Positions 29,401 through 40,403 of a stretch of DNA of 64,000 nucleotides are shown here, piece by piece. The notes beneath the pieces were generated by a model, which worked only from the letters and a program-made list of their open reading frames with translations, had not been told where the DNA came from and ran no database searches. Every line of letters starts with the position of its first letter. The stretch's first letter is position 1. The position numbers and the translations under genes are program-made. The stretch spans positions 4,234,501-4,298,500 of the forward strand of contig NC_019676.1 of NCBI RefSeq assembly GCF_000316625.1. Reading direction: 5' to 3'. The DNA is from Nostoc sp. PCC 7107 (lineage in GTDB: Bacteria; Cyanobacteriota; Cyanobacteriia; Cyanobacteriales; Nostocaceae).

Positions 29401-29423
29401 AAAAAAGTCCTCAATAAGGACTT
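29401..29423 (-). terminator. Rho-independent-type terminator for the minus-strand cluster
   Basis: On the minus strand AAGTCCT and AGGACTT form a 7-bp stem around a 5-nt loop and are followed directly by a T-run (TTTT). It lies ~30 bp after the stop of the membrane-protein frame (29452) and so marks the 3' end of the dynamin/Hsp70 cluster. Confidence 0.65.
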
Positions 29424-29451
29424 GAAATTAGGATTTAGTTTTGTAGATAAA

Positions 29452-30240
29452 TCAACACTGGCAATTGAGATTGACCCAAGGAAGTCTGCTGAAAAAATCT
29501 TGGCATAATTTTAAGATTTTCAAAATTCCTTCAATACGCTCTTTTGATTCTGTTGTAGAGGCAGTTATTTCATCCATATGTTCAAGATGTTTCTTCCAAT
29601 CACCTTCTACCACATCAGCAACTTTTTCAAAACCATTAGCAGTGTCCTCCCAGAATTTATCAATTCCTTTAAAAAACTGTTCACACACAGGCTGTTTTCC
29701 AAAATCTTTAACCACTTGTTTAGCTAATCGCTTTTGCCATGATTCTGTCAAGGAACTCCATAAGTTTGCAACTGCCAAACCTAATGTAACAGACAGACCT
29801 ATTCCAAGCACGATTGGCCCACCTATAGCAGCTACGATGGTCATTATTCCAGCCGTACCACCACTGAAACCAAAACCAATACCAATTGCTGATAAAAAAC
29901 TAACGAACTTTGCAACTAATATGTAACCACCAAGATTACCTAACGAAATTGCCCAAGCAGCCAAAGCACCGAAGCTACCTAAGCCTGCAATTGCACCCAT
30001 CACAGATGCTTCCCAATCAAAACGAAAAGTTTTAGAATTTGTATATTCTTCTGCTTGATATCCATGAAATTGTGCTTCAGCGTAACTTAAAAAGAAAGTA
30101 TCAATTTCCAGCTTAAATTTGTCTGAATTATCTTTAATAATGTTCTCTAGCTCATTTTGTAGTTTCTCTGATAAGTAACCTGCTAGATATTCCTGTGCAT
30201 CTTTTTTGTTATCATATTTTGCACAAATAATACTTTCCAC
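29452..30240 (-). CDS. Hydrophobic membrane protein, possible detached C-terminus of the HTH-GTPase
   Basis: The frame encodes a helical N-terminal part (YLSEKLQNELENIIKDN), a long glycine-rich hydrophobic core (about residues 78-165; SVMGAIAGLGSFGALAAWAI and GTAGIMTIVAAIGGPIVLGI) and a helical C-terminus (FWEDTANGFEKVADVVEGDW). The core could insert in or reshape a membrane, like the hydrophobic paddle or transmembrane parts of bacterial dynamins. The frame is the same as that of the upstream GTPase and remains open to the GTPase stop at 30346, with a coding-like sequence of ~35 residues before the GTG at 30240. It may be a second gene or the tail of one 757-aa protein cut by a single TAA. 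Confidence 0.65.
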   Translation of the reverse strand: MESIICAKYDNKKDAQEYLAGYLSEKLQNELENIIKDNSDKFKLEIDTFFLSYAEAQFHGYQAEEYTNSKTFRFDWEASVMGAIAGLGSFGALAAWAISLGNLGGYILVAKFVSFLSAIGIGFGFSGGTAGIMTIVAAIGGPIVLGIGLSVTLGLAVANLWSSLTESWQKRLAKQVVKDFGKQPVCEQFFKGIDKFWEDTANGFEKVADVVEGDWKKHLEHMDEITASTTESKERIEGILKILKLCQDFFSRLPWVNLNCQC

Positions 30241-30345
30241 AGTATTAACAGTTAGAAGCTGTTCTGCATATTTTTGAAACTCGGTTTTTGTAATTGTTTT
30301 TAACTCATGTATTCTCTTTAAAAGATTGTGCCTTTTCAGGTGATT

Positions 30346-31728
30346 TTATTCTTGCCGAATATGATCATTTTCTACCAATAAATTTAACTGTGATCGCTGG
30401 GCAGTTTTGACTTCTTCATCAGCAATATCTCTTTCATATTTGTTAATTAAATCAATATACTTTTTTATAGTATTCTCCTTAATATTTATAATTTCTCGGT
30501 TAATTTGACATATACGTGCTTCAGGGAAAAATTTACCTAATATATTAGTTAGTTGATCAAATAAGTGTTGACATCTGTTAGGTTTTTCTGACCAGAAAGT
30601 GAAAAACCTTTGTCTTAATTCTGTTTCTGAAATAGTACGGTTGGTGTTTTGTCTACGACGCTCTATCACAGTTTCAGTGAGATGATTGTAGAGTCTTTTT
30701 GAGGCTTTATCTGAAATTTCCTTGAGTTGATAGTCCGAGATACTTGGATCGGCATGGGTAGCCACAATAAAGAGATTACCTAGTGTAGGAAAATTACTAC
30801 ATTCATTCTCTGGTGTAGGAAGTAAACGTAACAAGCTGCCAAGACGTATCATATCTTGACCATTAATGTGACCCTTAGCTGGTGAAGCATATATCAGTAT
30901 ATCAGCTATCTGTGCAGCACTATTAGCTTTCTCAACATCTTTTGAAACTTCATCAGGTTGATCTGAATAACCAGGTAGATCTATTAAGTTGCAGGCTCGT
31001 AGTAAAGCAGAATCCAGATAAACTACAGCTGCATGAGCTAATACATCGTCATTGCTACCATGTACTCCATATTCTTGCAAAATATGAAAGCTTCCTGCTT
31101 TTAAGCAATACTGCTCACAACGTTCCTTGTCATCAAAAAGTAATAAGTCAATGACTTGCTTACCGCCTTCATCCTTTAACCAAAAGTCCTCTTCAAAAAT
31201 CAAAACATCTTCTTTAAACCATTCAGGACGGTCTTCTATATGACGAACAAATGTAATTACTCTTGTGGCAGGTTGATAACCAACTGGTAGATTTTTGCTA
31301 CCTAATAGAGCATTTGCTAAGTGTGATTTACCAGCATCAAATCCTCCTGTTAATGCTAGATTAGGTTTTTGCTTGTAGGACTTTACTAGCTTTTTAAAAT
31401 CATTGGGTATCGTTGGTGGTGTTGGTATGTCTATTCGCTCTACAGTTGGAGCCGCATTGATATACTGATTTAATAAATTTATATTGTGATAAAGTTCAGC
31501 GTAAGGATTACCTGGGTCAATTCCTTTCAATGCTTGTGTTGGTGGTGACATAACACTAGCAATATCAAGATTAAATATTGCTAACCATTGCACTAAAAGC
31601 CCCATTGGAACTGTTTCAGGCTTCTGTTCATAAAGACAAACTTCTTCGTTAGAAATACCCAATATCTTAGCAACCTGTACTTGACCTATACCTAATTTTT
31701 GACGATAGCTAAGTAAGTCAATATTCAT
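30346..31728 (-). CDS. XRE-type HTH fused to a dynamin-like GTPase
   Basis: Residues 5-55 are an XRE-like helix-turn-helix (YRQKLGIGQVQVAKILGISN; VQWLAIFNLDI). A GTPase domain follows: P-loop GGFDAGKS at 128-135, a switch-I-like threonine in PATRVITFV, G3 DLPG at 250-253 and G4-like ATHAD at 323-327. A helical region with ERRRQNTNRTISE and a C-terminal coiled-coil-like part end the protein. The domain arrangement is that of dynamin-superfamily or large GTPases, but the N-terminal DNA-binding domain is unusual. It ends with TAA at 30346, and the same frame continues into the hydrophobic protein. An IS4 element lies in its upstream region. Confidence 0.75.
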   Translation of the reverse strand: MNIDLLSYRQKLGIGQVQVAKILGISNEEVCLYEQKPETVPMGLLVQWLAIFNLDIASVMSPPTQALKGIDPGNPYAELYHNINLLNQYINAAPTVERIDIPTPPTIPNDFKKLVKSYKQKPNLALTGGFDAGKSHLANALLGSKNLPVGYQPATRVITFVRHIEDRPEWFKEDVLIFEEDFWLKDEGGKQVIDLLLFDDKERCEQYCLKAGSFHILQEYGVHGSNDDVLAHAAVVYLDSALLRACNLIDLPGYSDQPDEVSKDVEKANSAAQIADILIYASPAKGHINGQDMIRLGSLLRLLPTPENECSNFPTLGNLFIVATHADPSISDYQLKEISDKASKRLYNHLTETVIERRRQNTNRTISETELRQRFFTFWSEKPNRCQHLFDQLTNILGKFFPEARICQINREIINIKENTIKKYIDLINKYERDIADEEVKTAQRSQLNLLVENDHIRQE

Positions 31729-31825
31729 TACTGTATCTCCAAACCTAAATACTATTACTTATTCAGTTTTGGTATAAAAAATAAATTTAAACGAGTAGAG
31801 ATAACCGTCCATTAAAAAGGGTGCG

Positions 31826-33097
31826 CTGAAGGGGTGACAAAAAAGTTATAAAGCAGACTGGATAAGAGTCATAGCCCGTAGACCTTGTTGAAAATATGGC
31901 AGTTTACTGGGCTTGAGGCGCATCAATTCATGAGCTAAATCAGCCCAAAATTCCATTGCCCCTACCCATAACTGACCATACAAACCAATCCAAAAAGCAC
32001 TATGTCGGCGGTGCAATCGTTGTAACTCCTTCAGACGACCAACATATTTTTGTAGTCCAGAGGAGCGAGAATTACGACCAACTAAAATAGCACAAGTATA
32101 GGCAATAGCAATTAATAAAATCAGTGCTATCAAACGTTGACCATCAGCATAAGTAGATTCGAGATTATACCCCCCAGTTTTACAATCTTTAAACATGGCT
32201 TCGATACCACTCCGCAACTTAAATGCTTTAATGGCATCTTTGAGACTATCAAGGTTAGTTAATAAAAACCAGCCAGCAGGCTCAACAACTCCACGATATT
32301 TGCGCTTGTAATATCCGGCGAGATTAAAATTGGCAAACCCTTTCTGTTTAGTTGCTTGAATCCCTGTCAAAAAAAACGAGATGCCAGGAGTTAATCCCAA
32401 AGATTGTAAGCGTTGGTGTGATTGGTTTTCTTGCCGAATATAAGTACCTTGTTTCTGACGCAATACAAAGTCAATGCCCTTGCTATGTAACCAATTTGCT
32501 AGTTTTATACTGTGGAATTCTCTATCTCCCAGTACCAGCATTTGATATCCCTTAAATAACTGCAATAGTGGACGAATTAATTTTTTCTGCTCTCCCAAAT
32601 TGCTACATCCTTTTTTAGGTAACAATAGCCAGTACACAGGTATTGCTCTTTTTTGTTCTATTAAACTAATTACAAATACATTTTGTGAACGCCATTGTGT
32701 TCTATCAATCGCAAATATTAGCCGTTTCTCTCCTCTTTTCAGACTATTTTTCACCCATCGTTTGAGCAGGGGAAACCACAGATATGGAATCGACAACTGA
32801 GGTAGTAGTAAAAATCTTTGTATACTCCGCCTCCGACTTTCAAATTTTATCGGTTGTGGAAATACTGTTGCTAGTTTCTCAATTGTCACAGTTTTATGAA
32901 ATTGCAATAGCATTAGTAAGATTTCTAGCATCTTGTACTGTGCGGGTGTCAGTACATTTTGAAAGCAGTTTTGGTAGAATTTAGGTAACATTATCATTTG
33001 ATAGGTCTTGTTGAGAATACCTGACCTATCTTTTTTTACCCCAAAACGGTCACGCTCCTCTATTTTCTTGGCTTCAGCCGCTTTGTCACCCCTTCAG
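31826..33097 (-). mobile_element. IS4-family insertion sequence with 9-bp target duplication
   Basis: The terminal inverted repeats are CTGAAGGGGTGACAAA (31826-31841) and its complement (33082-33097). The 9-bp direct repeat AAGGGTGCG flanks both ends (31817-31825 and 33098-33106), marking a precise insertion of 1272 bp. It lies between two minus-strand genes of the dynamin/Hsp70 cluster, 88 bp upstream of the HTH-GTPase start. Perfect ends and an intact transposase suggest a recent insertion. Confidence 0.95.
31846..32997 (-). CDS. IS4-family transposase
   Basis: The 383-aa DDE transposase has the first Asp in FAIDRTQWRSQN, the second in MLVLGDREFHSIKL and the C-terminal IS4 signature FKLRSGIEAMFKDCKTGGYN (R..E......K). 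A beta-strand-rich insertion lies between the second Asp and Glu, as in IS4-type enzymes. All three acidic residues are present and the frame is undamaged. The start may be the ATG at 32997 or the one two codons downstream. Confidence 0.93.
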   Translation of the reverse strand: MIMLPKFYQNCFQNVLTPAQYKMLEILLMLLQFHKTVTIEKLATVFPQPIKFESRRRSIQRFLLLPQLSIPYLWFPLLKRWVKNSLKRGEKRLIFAIDRTQWRSQNVFVISLIEQKRAIPVYWLLLPKKGCSNLGEQKKLIRPLLQLFKGYQMLVLGDREFHSIKLANWLHSKGIDFVLRQKQGTYIRQENQSHQRLQSLGLTPGISFFLTGIQATKQKGFANFNLAGYYKRKYRGVVEPAGWFLLTNLDSLKDAIKAFKLRSGIEAMFKDCKTGGYNLESTYADGQRLIALILLIAIAYTCAILVGRNSRSSGLQKYVGRLKELQRLHRRHSAFWIGLYGQLWVGAMEFWADLAHELMRLKPSKLPYFQQGLRAMTLIQSAL

Positions 33098-33143
33098 AAG
33101 GGTGCGTTTGTTAAAGAAAATTGTAGGCAACAACCAGTCAAAA

Positions 33144-34241
33144 CTAACGTAACGAGCGAAATATTACTCGGCCTGGAGATTCTTCTTGATTAATGCGTGC
33201 GTAAACTCGCAGACAAGTTAAAACTTCTCCCGGAATACCACCACAATTGAGTTGCAAATCGTCTTTTGAGAAAGCACAAACATCAGCATAGAGTCCTGAT
33301 AGTTGGCGAATTCTAATATTGTGTCCTGATTTATTTGCTTTATCAGCAACTTTTTTTAGGGTTCGTCGTGATTCTTGTTGTAATTTTCCCCACCATGAAT
33401 AACGTTCAACAGGTGGTATAAAGACTAAAGAATGTATAGCTTCATCTATATCAATCCAAGCACGTACAATAGCTATATCTTCGCTATTCTCTTCAGCTTT
33501 TTGAATGCGGTGAAATCGGTCTTTTAAAGCTTCTATATATTGATTTTTTTGTTCTGGCTTGGAGTGCAAAGAAATAATATCAAAACTAAAAATACTTTTT
33601 AATGCGTGATGTATATCTGCTTCTATTTCAATAAAATTTTGATATAAACTCAAGAAACCAGCTAATAATTGTAAATCTTCTGAGTCACTATGTTGAATAA
33701 ATTTTGAATTTAAAAGTGCTTTTTGTGATAAACATAAACCCTGAACATTCACACTACCTCTGAGTCCAGAGTAAACAATATCATCTCTGATGAAGGGCAG
33801 TTGATAGAGATGAGAATTATCTTCGATTGCACCAATTTCTTGAGCAAAATCTAAAGCGCGTTGTTGCCAAAATGCAGCTAAATCATCGGGAATGCGTAAT
33901 ATTTTCCGGTGAATTTCGTTCCATAAATCTGCATCAGTTTGGCTTTGTAATTGTGCATCTCCTAAATATAAACTGAGTTCTGGGTCAGCATTCCAAGCAT
34001 CGCGGAGATGATGTAGGTTTAACTCATCTGAAGATTGGCTGAGAATGGTTTCTTGTTTATATACAGGTTGCAATAAACTTTGGATTTCTTGCAATAATTC
34101 TGCACAAATTTCCGCACCAGGATCATGGGGTAATTCTGTATAGGCTTGGTTTAATGCAGACTCTAGTCCATGCAGGCTACAGCGGAGTAACCTGGCTAAT
34201 TCGGAATTTTCTGTTTCTAATAGCTGACGTAGATGCTGCAT
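33144..34241 (-). CDS. Unrecognised protein of the dynamin/Hsp70 cluster (365 aa)
   Basis: I do not recognise a family. The protein is acidic and mostly helical. It begins with RQLLETENSELARLLRCSLH and carries Glu-rich segments (IEIEADIHHALKSIF; DIAIVRAWIDIDEAIHSL). A C-terminal small domain with NIRIRQLSGLYADVCAFSK and CGGIPGEVLTCLRVYARINQ looks beta-rich. There is no signal peptide or membrane segment. It follows the Hsp70-like gene by 115 bp on the same strand, so it is likely the third gene of that operon. A role as an adaptor or regulator is only a guess. Confidence 0.75.
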   Translation of the reverse strand: MQHLRQLLETENSELARLLRCSLHGLESALNQAYTELPHDPGAEICAELLQEIQSLLQPVYKQETILSQSSDELNLHHLRDAWNADPELSLYLGDAQLQSQTDADLWNEIHRKILRIPDDLAAFWQQRALDFAQEIGAIEDNSHLYQLPFIRDDIVYSGLRGSVNVQGLCLSQKALLNSKFIQHSDSEDLQLLAGFLSLYQNFIEIEADIHHALKSIFSFDIISLHSKPEQKNQYIEALKDRFHRIQKAEENSEDIAIVRAWIDIDEAIHSLVFIPPVERYSWWGKLQQESRRTLKKVADKANKSGHNIRIRQLSGLYADVCAFSKDDLQLNCGGIPGEVLTCLRVYARINQEESPGRVIFRSLR

Positions 34242-34356
34242 GATGAGTGGGGGTTTGCATTATTTTAAACGCAGAGGGCGCAAGGTTAAGCGCAGAGTTA
34301 CGCGGAGAAAATTCATTACTTTGCACCTTTGCGCCTTTGCGCGAAACAATTCATTA

Positions 34357-37300
34357 TTAATGTATTCCACAGAAGGGATCGCGTTCTTTATCTACTTCGT
34401 TAGGTTGCAATTCTAACTCGGCACGATAAACACAACCTTCTTGTTTTAAACATTCTTGACTTGTGGATGTCCAGTAGGGAACTTCGCCGGGGTGCATCCG
34501 CAGAATACCTTTGTTGTCGAGGGTGACGCGATATTGACAAGGGTAGTCTGTGGTGACATCTGGCTTACTGAGTGAACCGATGCGTATCCATTTTTTTCTA
34601 TTAGTTTCTGTGTCGGTTTGATAAACGTAAAATGTGTGTTGTCTAGTGTAAGGAAATGGTGGTAAGGAATTACTAATTAAACCCTGTCCTGGTTGGGGTG
34701 AACCATCGCGGAGGTAATGGAATTCGTGGAGGGATTTGTGATCATTTGAGTCGATTTCAAAGACTAAATGATAGGCATTTGGTTGATCAACGGTTGCTGA
34801 TTCGATGACGTTGACGGCTATATCACCATCAGTTAAATCTTTATTTGTTCTTTCCACGGCGATATTCCATTTTAATTTACCGTCAGCAAATAAGGTGGCT
34901 TCGGAAGCTGCTGATATTGCTGAACCGACATCAATACCGGGAACATCTATTAAGTAATGGGGGTTGCCTTGACATAGCAAGACATTAAATTGTAATGTCT
35001 GGTCAATTTCAAATTGCACTTTGATTTTTCTGAGAAACTCTGCTTCTTCCATCCCCAATTTTTCCATGAGATGTTTACCGTCAAAGCTTCCCCAAAGTCT
35101 TAAATCACCGTCTTCGTAATCTTGGCGATAAATAATATTAGTTAACTGTATCCCTTGCCAACCGGTACGTACTTTGGCGACTGTTTCCCAAGGTGCAATT
35201 TGATAAAGTTCTTGTCCGGCTTTGAATACTGTTAATAGTTCGTTACTTTGGGTTTTGCGTTTGAAGTTGCAAGGTAAGTAATAAAATAAGTTTTTAACGT
35301 CAATTTCTAATTGATTTGCGCCTTTTTGAAGCAATGTTTTAGATTCTTCAGGGTCAAATCTGAGTCGGCGTAATTTCTCGGCATAACACGCGCCTGCGGA
35401 GGTGGCGAGTTTGGTAAATTCTAAAACAAAGGTAATGCGTTCAGGGTTCCAAACGAAGTAGGGAGACTTACTAAATTCTTGATAAATATGGCGTTGTACT
35501 AAGTCTAGATTGCAAGTTTTTCCTGAGAGAATTAACCAGTCAACTTTGTGGGTGTTCCAAGCATCAATGGTGTTATCTTCTGAACGCAAGCGGCTTTCCA
35601 TTAAGCCTTTAGCAATACCAATTGCTTCTTTAATGGCAGATGTGGCGACGCGTTCAAATTGTTGATTATCTAAGGTGACAGAAATAGTATCTGGGTTAAG
35701 AATTTGATATTTAATGGCGCTTTGAGTGAGGAGTTCAGCTATTTGTTGCTCAGAGATTGTAAAGGTTAAAAGTGAATTTTCTATTGGTGATTTTTGTCCG
35801 AGTTTAAGTTTAGCTGCTTCTGCATAATCCCAAAGTGTGTAAAAGGTTTGTAGGCGTTGGGGTGCTTGTTGCCAACGAGTTGGTAAGACTTTTTCGGCTG
35901 TATCTAAGGCATCTTTATAAGCTGCGTCGCCTTCGGGATTTTCTCTATCTAGGCATTTTAATAAACTGCCTGTTTTGAATTTACCTTGGTCTAGAAAACG
36001 CTCGTTTAATTCGGCACTAATTAAGTCTTCGAGTTTTTCGCTGTCGATATCGCCACGGGTGACTGCTGTTAGAAGAAAATCTGCGATCGCAACTTTTAAT
36101 AACCGGAATACTCGCAGGGTAATTAGTTCACCACCCAACTGTAAATGTCCTGATGAACCTAATAGTTTGGGAGTCAGTTTATAATACCTTCCACCTAAGC
36201 CTCGGTCTTCATTATTGGCAAAGAAGGGGGTTTTATCTTCTAAGGTTAATTCAATTAAAGCTAAGTCTGTTGTGCCGCCACCAATATCTAAAACTAAGAC
36301 GTTTTGTGACCATTTATTGCCATCGCGGCGACAACGGGTTTTAAACGATTCAATGCCAATATTGAGATTACCGCCAAATTCTCGCCATAGGAAAAATATC
36401 GCTACGGAAACAGCTTCATCATAAGCAGTTTGGACATCATCAATGCCTAATTGTTCGACTAATTGCCTAACTTCTTTGCGAACTACTGGCGGTGCGACTG
36501 TGGGATAGGTAACGACTGCGGTTAAAAATTCACCTTCGGAAAATCTGCGTCTAGCGCGTTGGCGATAATCTTCTGTTAATTCTATTAAATGCGCCCAAGC
36601 TGCTTGAATTAATTGATTAACATTAATGTTAGCTTCCGTCTCATTTAAGATGACTGGAAATAATCTATTTTGTCCAAAATAACGCTTGGGTGAGTGGTGA
36701 AACCGGCTGATAATTTCTTTTAAAGAACTACTGGTTCCTTGAGCAATTGCTTTTTTTCTGTTGTCTCTTGCTTCCCGTCCCATTTTCAAGTTTAATACTT
36801 CCAAGTTAGAAATTTCTAACTCGCTGGGAATTTCAGTATCACGGCGGTCAATATCAAGAACGACGGGAATTAAATTTTGGGATTCTAATGTGGGAACGCG
36901 AAAGACTTCATGATATATTTGATATAGTTTTTTGCTGGCTGCCCGTTGAAATTTTTCGCTATTACCTAAACATAATTCGATTTGACGGATTGCTTCTAAG
37001 AATTTTTCTTTGTTATCACTTTCAAAAATTTCATTTAATCGGCTGGGTTCAATTTCTAAGTTTTTACTAATATCAATAATAAATTTCTGCCACTCAATTT
37101 CGCTGATATCGGGTAATGCTTCGGAAGCGGGAGAATTGAGCCATTGGGCTAGGCGATCGCGCAATCTTAATTCCTGTTCTCGTGGTAAAATTTCAGCGAT
37201 GGGGATTTCTATCGGGTCGAACAGAGTGACGGTAGAATTCGACGTACCAAAATCTAAAGCAAACCATCCGGGAAATCTTTTTTGGGGTTGGCTATGCAGT

Positions 37301-37758
37301 TCTTTTTCAGGCGGATTTGGTAGTTGAAAAGGATTCATAGAAATATCTGGTTTGATTATTTGCTCTTCAGGATTTGTTGGTGTCCATAAATAGCAAGCTG
37401 CTTTAATTTGCTTTGGTTCAGATAATACTGGTTCTCCTGAAAAATCGGAATCAAAATACTCAACAATTACCTGTAATGTACAGTTAATTGGCTCTGTTAA
37501 AGGTTTTTCGAGTTTACAAGGATATTGTTCTAATTGCCCGATTTGGGAAATTTTTGGTGTGACAGCATCAAATGGTTTATATGCTTTTTGAATTTGTGAT
37601 GGTAATTCGTGAGGAGTACCTTTGACAGAGAAATTAATCCGTGCAATGTGGGGGACGTTGTTCCCTATAGCTACTAGTTGAATGGTGGGAAGTTCTAAAT
37701 ATTCGTTGTCGTTAATTTGGATTTGGAAGCGTGGTGGAAGGCGAATTTCTACTGGCAT
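34357..37758 (-). CDS. Large Hsp70/actin-fold ATPase (SrfB-like)
   Basis: Residues ~165-800 contain the Hsp70/actin ATPase core: phosphate-1 ALDFGTSNSTVTLF (169-175 region), a helical insertion, phosphate-2 VLVLDIGGGTTDLALIEL (~residue 490) and an adenosine-motif-like WLILSGKTCNLDLVQ (~737). A ~160-residue beta-rich N-terminal domain precedes it, and a beta-rich C-terminus of ~250 residues replaces the usual DnaK substrate domain. At 1133 aa it is far longer than DnaK. The size and motif layout resemble the SrfB virulence-factor family, judged by eye only. It follows the dynamin-like gene by 95 bp and is probably cotranscribed with it. Confidence 0.8.
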   Translation of the reverse strand: MPVEIRLPPRFQIQINDNEYLELPTIQLVAIGNNVPHIARINFSVKGTPHELPSQIQKAYKPFDAVTPKISQIGQLEQYPCKLEKPLTEPINCTLQVIVEYFDSDFSGEPVLSEPKQIKAACYLWTPTNPEEQIIKPDISMNPFQLPNPPEKELHSQPQKRFPGWFALDFGTSNSTVTLFDPIEIPIAEILPREQELRLRDRLAQWLNSPASEALPDISEIEWQKFIIDISKNLEIEPSRLNEIFESDNKEKFLEAIRQIELCLGNSEKFQRAASKKLYQIYHEVFRVPTLESQNLIPVVLDIDRRDTEIPSELEISNLEVLNLKMGREARDNRKKAIAQGTSSSLKEIISRFHHSPKRYFGQNRLFPVILNETEANINVNQLIQAAWAHLIELTEDYRQRARRRFSEGEFLTAVVTYPTVAPPVVRKEVRQLVEQLGIDDVQTAYDEAVSVAIFFLWREFGGNLNIGIESFKTRCRRDGNKWSQNVLVLDIGGGTTDLALIELTLEDKTPFFANNEDRGLGGRYYKLTPKLLGSSGHLQLGGELITLRVFRLLKVAIADFLLTAVTRGDIDSEKLEDLISAELNERFLDQGKFKTGSLLKCLDRENPEGDAAYKDALDTAEKVLPTRWQQAPQRLQTFYTLWDYAEAAKLKLGQKSPIENSLLTFTISEQQIAELLTQSAIKYQILNPDTISVTLDNQQFERVATSAIKEAIGIAKGLMESRLRSEDNTIDAWNTHKVDWLILSGKTCNLDLVQRHIYQEFSKSPYFVWNPERITFVLEFTKLATSAGACYAEKLRRLRFDPEESKTLLQKGANQLEIDVKNLFYYLPCNFKRKTQSNELLTVFKAGQELYQIAPWETVAKVRTGWQGIQLTNIIYRQDYEDGDLRLWGSFDGKHLMEKLGMEEAEFLRKIKVQFEIDQTLQFNVLLCQGNPHYLIDVPGIDVGSAISAASEATLFADGKLKWNIAVERTNKDLTDGDIAVNVIESATVDQPNAYHLVFEIDSNDHKSLHEFHYLRDGSPQPGQGLISNSLPPFPYTRQHTFYVYQTDTETNRKKWIRIGSLSKPDVTTDYPCQYRVTLDNKGILRMHPGEVPYWTSTSQECLKQEGCVYRAELELQPNEVDKERDPFCGIH

Positions 37759-37853
37759 TTTTTAGTTCCTTGAATTTCTGAATAAACCGCAGATGAACAC
37801 AGATGTTTTACATTTCTCTTCTCTCTGTGTTCTCTGTGTCTCTGTGGTTCAAT

Positions 37854-40403
37854 TTAAACAATATCTAAATAAGAATTAGTGGCGATTTCTGAGAGAATAT
37901 TTAACCAAGTGGGAATCGCAAGTTTCGGTGGTGAATCGCCAGCGGCTAGGTATCTCAGCAATGCTTCTTTTTTGGAAATATTTTGTAGTGTGGGAATAAT
38001 TTGGTCTAAGATACCTTCTATTTCTGAGTTGACTTGTTGATTAACTTCGCTGACATACTGCACCAGATGTAAACTGGCACTAGCAGTAATTTCATCTCGC
38101 AAACGCAAGACTAACATTTGATGATGGCTGGCTCTGGGTGAATTTTGGTTTCTTTCGGGCGACCAATCAAATATTTGACCAATGTTGTGTTTTTCGTCTT
38201 GACGTGCTAACGGAAACATAATTTCAGGGGCAATTTCTTTATCTTTGCTATTAATTTCTGCGAGAATAGCTTCTTTCCATTGATTAGGGTCACAACCTAA
38301 CAGTAATTTATAAAATAAATCTGCTTCTTCACCACCAAATCCCAGTTCGATTTCTTGTTCCATTTCGGGAGTAAGAATTGTTTTGAGATAGTCCCTGGAT
38401 TCGGCTATTTGATTGGATAGTTTACTTAATAAATCTACCACTGCTTGGCGAATGCGATCGCGGGCAAATATTTCGACTTCTTGCACAGTTTTTTCAAAGG
38501 TGGGATAAAAATCATCACTCTTTGTCGGCAAGGTATTATTGACTTTACTTCCTCTGTCGAATAACTTCCCGGCTGCGCCTTTGGTTTCGGCAATGGTAAT
38601 AGCGCCATTGTTGGCTTTGTTAAATAATAAAGTCCACTGGTTCCAGTTGAGAATTTGAAACGTAATTTCGTCTTTTACTACCTCACTAACACCTATTCCT
38701 CGGCGGTCTTTGAGTGGTTCTTTACCTAATTCTTTTTGGAAGTTGCGGTAAGTTTTATCTAAACTATCAATGGCACTCCGCAAGTCAACTAATGTGGGAC
38801 TATCGAGAGTTGGGATACCTTGTTCGTGAATTTCTTCAATAATATTTTTCAGGTTTTCTTGTTGTTGACGCACACTTTCAGCAGCGCGGCGAGTATCTTC
38901 ATATAGTTGCTTGAGTCCGTGCGCCGCAACGTGACTTTGAATTAATTCGCGCAGTTTGGCAATACCGCCATCTTGAGCAAAGTAACCTAGTTTTCTACCA
39001 AGTTGGCTGCGTGCATCAGATTCTAGCAACCTTTCGCTTAAACTTGACCATTTTTGTTGTAATCGTTTTGAGCGTTCAAGGTAATTAGGATAATCTAAGT
39101 TACTTAAAAATTCTGCTGAACCTGCTTTAACACTACTGGAACGTTTAGATAATTCCGCTAGTCCTAGCAGGGGTGATAACAACACAATGCGGTCTTTTTG
39201 AGTGGTGAATGCACTTGCACCATCAATAGTTGTTTGCAGAACTTTGAGTTTTTGGACAACTTTGTCCTCATATAAAGGAGTGTTGGCTGTGCTGTCTTGG
39301 ATGAGTTGGTCGAGTTCTCTTTCGCCGCCTTCACTTTCTAGGGGTAGCTGGTCAAAACGACCGACACCGACAAGAATTAAATCTTTCAGGTCTTGTCCTG
39401 GTCGCTGTTGCTGCATCATGGTGAAAATTTTATTGGCGCGATCGCTCCCTGGCGATTTACCATTGAGCAAGATTAAAATTGTCTGAACTTCCGCCAATTC
39501 TCGCAGCGATAAAAACGTATCTCGCGCGCCGGAATTCGCCGCACCCAACCCCGGAAAATCTAACAAAATAAATTCAGAAGCATCTGTTACATCCCAAATT
39601 TCCCGCGAGATTTTCACTTCAATATCAACTCGCCGAATTAAGGGGAAGCTGTTTTGTAATAACTTTGTGGCTAACTTTTGGGGTGGACTGGGTAAACGGA
39701 TATGCGCTGGCGGTAAGTCTGCAAACCTGAGAGTTTGGATAGCCATTGGTTGTTCTGCCAGCTGTAAACCCTCCCGTGCTGTGGCATGATCAATCTGATA
39801 GCGCCCGCTACACATCGCCTCGCCATAGGAACTATAAGCACGCACAAATAACACCAACTCTCGCAGCAAATAGCGTAACTCTAAATTATTACTCTGATTC
39901 CATGCTTGCTCACACCAAGCCAGAATATCTTTGCCAGAGTTTAACTGCGATAGTTGTATAGGCACAAGTCCCGCTGCTGCTGACCTGCGGCTGGCTTCTG
40001 CTAACATATACCGCAGGCACTCTTTCACCCCTTCATGAGAAAGATACTCAACAGTAAAATTTCCCACTTGGGTAGTAACAAATTCATCTTGTGGGATTAA
40101 GTGAATCGCTGTAACGTTCCCTGTCGTGGGGTTTTCATTGACTGGTAACGCATCTGCATATCCGATTAAGCTACCTAATAATAGAGTTTTGCCACTACTA
40201 AATTCTCCCATCACACCGATTTTCACAGGCGAAGTCGCAAGTTCTACGGTTTTCTCAGCAGTTTCTCGCAAACGTTCCAGACATTCATCCAAACTGGCTG
40301 GAACCCAGTCTTCTTGTTTAGAAGGATACTGTGGTACAGAGTTAATTTTCTGGAGTATAAATTCGCCATACTCTTTAAAATTTGCTAACTTTTCAGATTC
40401 CAT
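37854..40403 (-). CDS. Large dynamin-like GTPase
   Basis: The 849-aa protein has an N-terminal GTPase domain: P-loop GEFSSGKT at 66-73, the NPTTGNVT switch-I region near 91-98, G3 DFPG at 282-285 and a degenerate G4 (GRFDQ, 349-353). Long helical segments follow (AESVRQQQENLKNIIEEIHE; VDLLSKLSNQIAESRDYLKT), as in the stalk of dynamin-superfamily proteins. I see no strongly hydrophobic transmembrane segment, so any membrane contact would be peripheral. A long insertion lies between G1 and G3. It is the first gene of the minus-strand cluster, and the following Hsp70-like gene suggests a GTPase-plus-ATPase machine. Confidence 0.8.
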   Translation of the reverse strand: MESEKLANFKEYGEFILQKINSVPQYPSKQEDWVPASLDECLERLRETAEKTVELATSPVKIGVMGEFSSGKTLLLGSLIGYADALPVNENPTTGNVTAIHLIPQDEFVTTQVGNFTVEYLSHEGVKECLRYMLAEASRRSAAAGLVPIQLSQLNSGKDILAWCEQAWNQSNNLELRYLLRELVLFVRAYSSYGEAMCSGRYQIDHATAREGLQLAEQPMAIQTLRFADLPPAHIRLPSPPQKLATKLLQNSFPLIRRVDIEVKISREIWDVTDASEFILLDFPGLGAANSGARDTFLSLRELAEVQTILILLNGKSPGSDRANKIFTMMQQQRPGQDLKDLILVGVGRFDQLPLESEGGERELDQLIQDSTANTPLYEDKVVQKLKVLQTTIDGASAFTTQKDRIVLLSPLLGLAELSKRSSSVKAGSAEFLSNLDYPNYLERSKRLQQKWSSLSERLLESDARSQLGRKLGYFAQDGGIAKLRELIQSHVAAHGLKQLYEDTRRAAESVRQQQENLKNIIEEIHEQGIPTLDSPTLVDLRSAIDSLDKTYRNFQKELGKEPLKDRRGIGVSEVVKDEITFQILNWNQWTLLFNKANNGAITIAETKGAAGKLFDRGSKVNNTLPTKSDDFYPTFEKTVQEVEIFARDRIRQAVVDLLSKLSNQIAESRDYLKTILTPEMEQEIELGFGGEEADLFYKLLLGCDPNQWKEAILAEINSKDKEIAPEIMFPLARQDEKHNIGQIFDWSPERNQNSPRASHHQMLVLRLRDEITASASLHLVQYVSEVNQQVNSEIEGILDQIIPTLQNISKKEALLRYLAAGDSPPKLAIPTWLNILSEIATNSYLDIV

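Follow-up and report, generated by a model that had tools for sequence, protein, structure and literature searches.

Among bacterial dynamins, the BDLP of Nostoc punctiforme (PDB 2J68/2J69) combines a GTPase, a trunk and a hydrophobic paddle, and the B. subtilis dynamin DynA limits the spread of phage (PMC8844932). Enterotoxigenic E. coli encodes a conserved split dynamin, LeoC/LeoB (PMC4159319), and a similar division into two proteins therefore deserved testing at the locus described here, although the LeoC/LeoB break is located within the GTPase domain and the break at our locus lies elsewhere. The window, a stretch of 64,000 nucleotides from Nostoc sp. PCC 7107, contains a minus-strand dynamin gene (31728 to 29452) that is interrupted by a single TAA. 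Our analysis indicates that this is very probably one gene for a 757-residue XRE-HTH bacterial dynamin-like protein, in which codon 461 has undergone an apparently recent nonsense substitution that is specific to the lineage (GAA to TAA, a G-to-T change).

The TAA (30346-30348, minus strand) is the sole in-frame stop before the TGA at 29452-29454, and reading past it gives the 757 residues with no second interruption. The sequence thus reads as a sequence-only reading had described it, with one in-frame TAA dividing an HTH-dynamin GTPase from a hydrophobic part in the same phase; that reading did not give the strand. The N-terminal open reading frame of 460 amino acids (30346-31728, minus strand) comprises the HTH (residues ~5-57), the GTPase (~120-330) and the first trunk helices, and closes at the TAA. 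The orphaned C-terminal part (29452-30345, minus strand) holds the remainder of the trunk, the hydrophobic paddle (~575-655), the C-terminal helices and the original TGA, beyond which lies a terminator-like hairpin followed by a T run (29405-29423, minus strand); a similar hairpin follows the gene in the homologues L032 and L047. As both sides of the TAA align end to end with homologues that form a single open reading frame, the split frame is far beyond chance.

The domain content is that of a dynamin. Pfam Dynamin_N matches residues ~124-290 above the cut-off (8.7e-12), and the window copy has both the P-loop (GGFDAGKS) and the DxxG motif (DLPG), which are invariant or nearly so in the alignment of homologues. 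The N-terminal XRE/HipB-like HTH falls below the Pfam cut-off in the window copy; HTH_3 passes it in the homologue L047 (5e-6), and a profile built from 16 homologues matches HipB structures across positions 5-59. The structure of the intact Nostoc spongiaeforme protein was modelled with a mean pLDDT of 70, falling below 50 in the paddle. The model contains the HTH, the GTPase and helices at 383-436, 438-491 and 508-555, followed by a helical, hydrophobic paddle at ~572-654 and by C-terminal helices. Its top Foldseek match in the PDB is the Nostoc BDLP, with an alignment that spans almost all of the protein (E 7e-13). Trunk and paddle are thus joined in one polypeptide in the intact homologues, subject to the low confidence of the modelled paddle; the first open reading frame of the window lacks this combination, as the TAA, which maps within the long trunk helix 438-491, removes the paddle.

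The search for homologues covered 293 genomes from the order and 218 from the family, with one additional scan of genome contigs. An uninterrupted full-length frame was found in 20 other cyanobacterial genomes at 44-91% identity, as well as in two more distant ones at ~30%, and no stop interrupts the junction in any of them. When 16 homologues were aligned by codon, position 461 read GAA in 13, GAT in two and TTG in one, and TAA occurred only in the window; GAA and TAA differ by a single base. In the closest relative, N. spongiaeforme (91% amino acid identity), the gene at this locus is intact and codon 461 reads GAA. Lesion-free orthologues, including the nearest relative, are thus available, as would be expected for a nonsense pseudogene. 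The earlier suggestion that the two parts together have the layout of one full bacterial dynamin is borne out, since all full-length homologues are single contiguous proteins and the fold matches that of the Nostoc BDLP.

Nonsense mutation, readthrough and a true division into two genes had been left side by side by the sequence-only reading, and only the first of these found positive evidence. Were the HTH-GTPase and the membrane part made separately, to assemble like LeoC and LeoB, the published leoC/leoB precedent (PMC4159319) and a C-terminal frame that is still open and conserved would be accounted for, but we consider such a two-gene arrangement very unlikely. No homologue is divided at this point, and no conserved split in which the downstream half has its own start was found. 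The GTG at codon 497 (30238-30240, minus strand) is indeed the first standard start (ATG, GTG or TTG) beyond the TAA, as had been stated, and the only one near the beginning of the second part; however, it lies 105 nt past the TAA, and no Shine-Dalgarno-like sequence precedes it. Rather than always occurring as two proteins with the start at 30240 conserved, the orthologues are one protein each, in which codon 497 is variously GTG, GTA, GTC, GTT, ATT or ATA, so that the GTG is an ordinary internal valine/isoleucine codon. The single ATG between the TAA and this GTG is out of frame and stops immediately, and the earliest in-frame ATG past the TAA is at 30000; non-standard in-frame starts are present at 30339 (CTG), 30312 (ATA) and 30294 (ATT).

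Programmed or frequent readthrough of the TAA, yielding the full protein, would be in line with a frame that is open after the stop and has not decayed, yet we regard it as extremely unlikely, because no relative has an in-frame stop at the same position and near relatives encode Glu directly, so that no regulation needs explaining. The base that follows the TAA is an A, a context that, to our knowledge, is not among the known leaky ones. An intact gene with a base-calling error in the deposited genome would likewise fit the undecayed surrounding frame, and the TAA is one substitution away from the GAA of the relatives. This, too, is most improbable: the genome is a single finished contig (6,329,823 bp) with 99.99% completeness, and disruption is common in the HTH-dynamin family. 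What might have been taken for recoding or a split protein thereby turns out to be a nonsense mutation of the usual kind, and it would be misleading to annotate the halves as separate genes.

The nonsense substitution appears to be recent. Relative to N. spongiaeforme, dN/dS is 0.20 before the stop and 0.26 after it, and the sequence after the TAA contains no indel and no further stop; a long-dead pseudogene was rejected on these grounds. At columns within residues 462-757 whose conservation among the other homologues reaches 80% or more, the window branch carries no changes and the other branch three. The frame after the stop thus still looks constrained, a counterpoint to loss of function, and its undecayed state is what one would expect either of a very young lesion, in a gene that was under selection until a short time ago, or of a recent exchange of its 3' end. 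Such an exchange is plausible, as a block of ~600 bp (29426-30025) is 97-99% identical to N. spongiaeforme and may be a sign of recombination between lineages. The preceding gene segment has 81-91% identity and the sequence that follows about 85-87%, with a sharp end of the block just past the gene. Four-fold sites differ from N. spongiaeforme at 6 of 83 positions in codons 568-758, compared to 16 of 52 in codons 318-567 (Fisher p = 6e-4).

Upstream of the gene, 97 bp from its start codon, an IS4-family insertion sequence (31826-33097, minus strand) is present that is absent at the same spot in N. spongiaeforme. It has 16-bp terminal inverted repeats (CTGAAGGGGTGACAAA) and a transposase gene at 31846-32997 (NCBIfam IS4 family, 3e-75), and is flanked by a 9-bp target-site duplication (AAGGGTGCG), of which one copy adjoins the dynamin gene (31817-31825) and the other lies at 33098-33106. 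About 20 near-identical full copies of the element occur in the genome. One of these (G000:C1:5461579-5462851) is directly adjoined by a partial copy (5462852-5463372), an arrangement indicative of recent expansion. Between the insertion sequence and the gene, a block at 31729-31816 (minus strand; GGTTATCTCTACTCG... and TTTTTATACCAAAACTGAATAAGTAATAGT...) resembles, by eye, the upstream regions of L032, L033, L036, L034 and L037, which mostly reside in genomic settings other than that of the window. A block common to homologues in other settings suggests that the gene carries its own promoter, and we consider it a probable promoter/operator. As the insertion sequence leaves this block intact, it need not have silenced the gene, and we do not claim the insertion as a sure cause of silencing.

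Beyond the insertion sequence, a minus-strand run of three genes (33144-40403) encodes a dynamin-like GTPase (849 aa), an SrfB-like protein with an actin/Hsp70 fold (1133 aa) and an unknown protein of 365 aa. The last of these is present in 210 of the 218 genomes of the family, making this neighboring dynamin operon nearly universal. Membership of the HTH-dynamin in this operon was considered and rejected: only two of the 11 genomes of the genus have it at this locus, and the other nine, including G438, the closest by locus, lack it in the interval that separates the 365-aa gene from the conserved genes that come next. Homologues of the HTH-dynamin are mostly solitary genes and are located elsewhere in most genomes. 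At the dynamin site, G438 has ~1.2 kb of other sequence (L101 7723-8968), seemingly another small gene that an insertion has split.

Loss is the common fate of the family: nine of 11 congeners lack the gene here, and at least nine other homologues look disrupted by unrelated lesions. Errors may account for some of the frameshifts in draft assemblies, but not for lesions such as the insertion, the deletions and the remnants. G266 contains an insertion with a transposase-like open reading frame, G048 and Iningainema have frameshifts, in G406 and G415 nothing but remnants is left at the locus that the gene occupies in the window, and G328, G349 and G326 give C-terminal matches only; in G413 and G420, contig ends truncate the homologues. 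In G108 (L119 1329-2522), an in-frame deletion of ~350 codons leaves a 411-residue open frame that joins the HTH-GTPase straight to the C-terminal helices, without the trunk and most of the paddle. A literature search for pseudogenes in Nostoc returned nothing specific. Together with the low occupancy of the locus, the unrelated lesions indicate that the family has been gained and lost repeatedly, and a patchy distribution of intact members and many wrecks is what would be expected of a gene that is costly or useful only under certain conditions, for instance in phage defense. Members are also found on mobilizable plasmids of Carboxydocella, Acinetobacter, Lactiplantibacillus and Lactococcus (23-31% identity). 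Tentatively, and with less than even confidence, we propose that the XRE-HTH dynamins form a single-gene device for membrane attack or membrane repair, possibly anti-phage, that spreads horizontally and regulates itself; it would be shared by cyanobacteria and mobilizable plasmids of other phyla, and hosts would repeatedly have acquired and then broken it.

The intact protein probably acts like other bacterial dynamins, with GTP-driven assembly of the GTPase and trunk, and with a paddle that would enter and remodel the membrane. The HTH probably represses the gene's own promoter, which seems to travel with it. By analogy with DynA (PMC8844932) or Eleos, this HTH-controlled membrane remodeling may possibly serve in phage defense. 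In Nostoc sp. PCC 7107, the cell would make at most an HTH-GTPase stub with an incomplete trunk and with neither the membrane paddle nor the C-terminal helices; as the stop falls midway along the long trunk helix and only this stub would be produced, dynamin function has most likely been lost.

Compared to the described systems, the protein shows partial likeness to several. The Eleos anti-phage system (LeoABC of ETEC) is matched in part by PADLOC profiles for LeoA (2e-13) and LeoBC (3e-8), but we reject an assignment to Eleos, as LeoA and LeoBC are not found side by side, the homologues are contiguous and the break point differs; in place of a Leo pair, the neighbors in the window are the second, conserved dynamin, the SrfB-like protein and the unknown protein. 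DynA is likewise a bacterial dynamin GTPase, with a weak NCBIfam match to the protein studied here, but consists of two fused dynamins and, unlike this family, has no HTH. The N-terminal ~55 residues match structures of the antitoxin HipB and the XRE-type domain HTH_3, although the HTH is fused to a dynamin here and no HipA toxin adjoins it. The nearest counterpart is the BDLP of N. punctiforme, which has its GTPase, trunk and paddle in the same order and is also the best PDB profile match in the GTPase; it differs in sequence (about 13-15% identity) and in the domain angles of the model (TM about 0.4), and the family described here adds an N-terminal XRE/HipB-like HTH, with a premature stop in the window copy.
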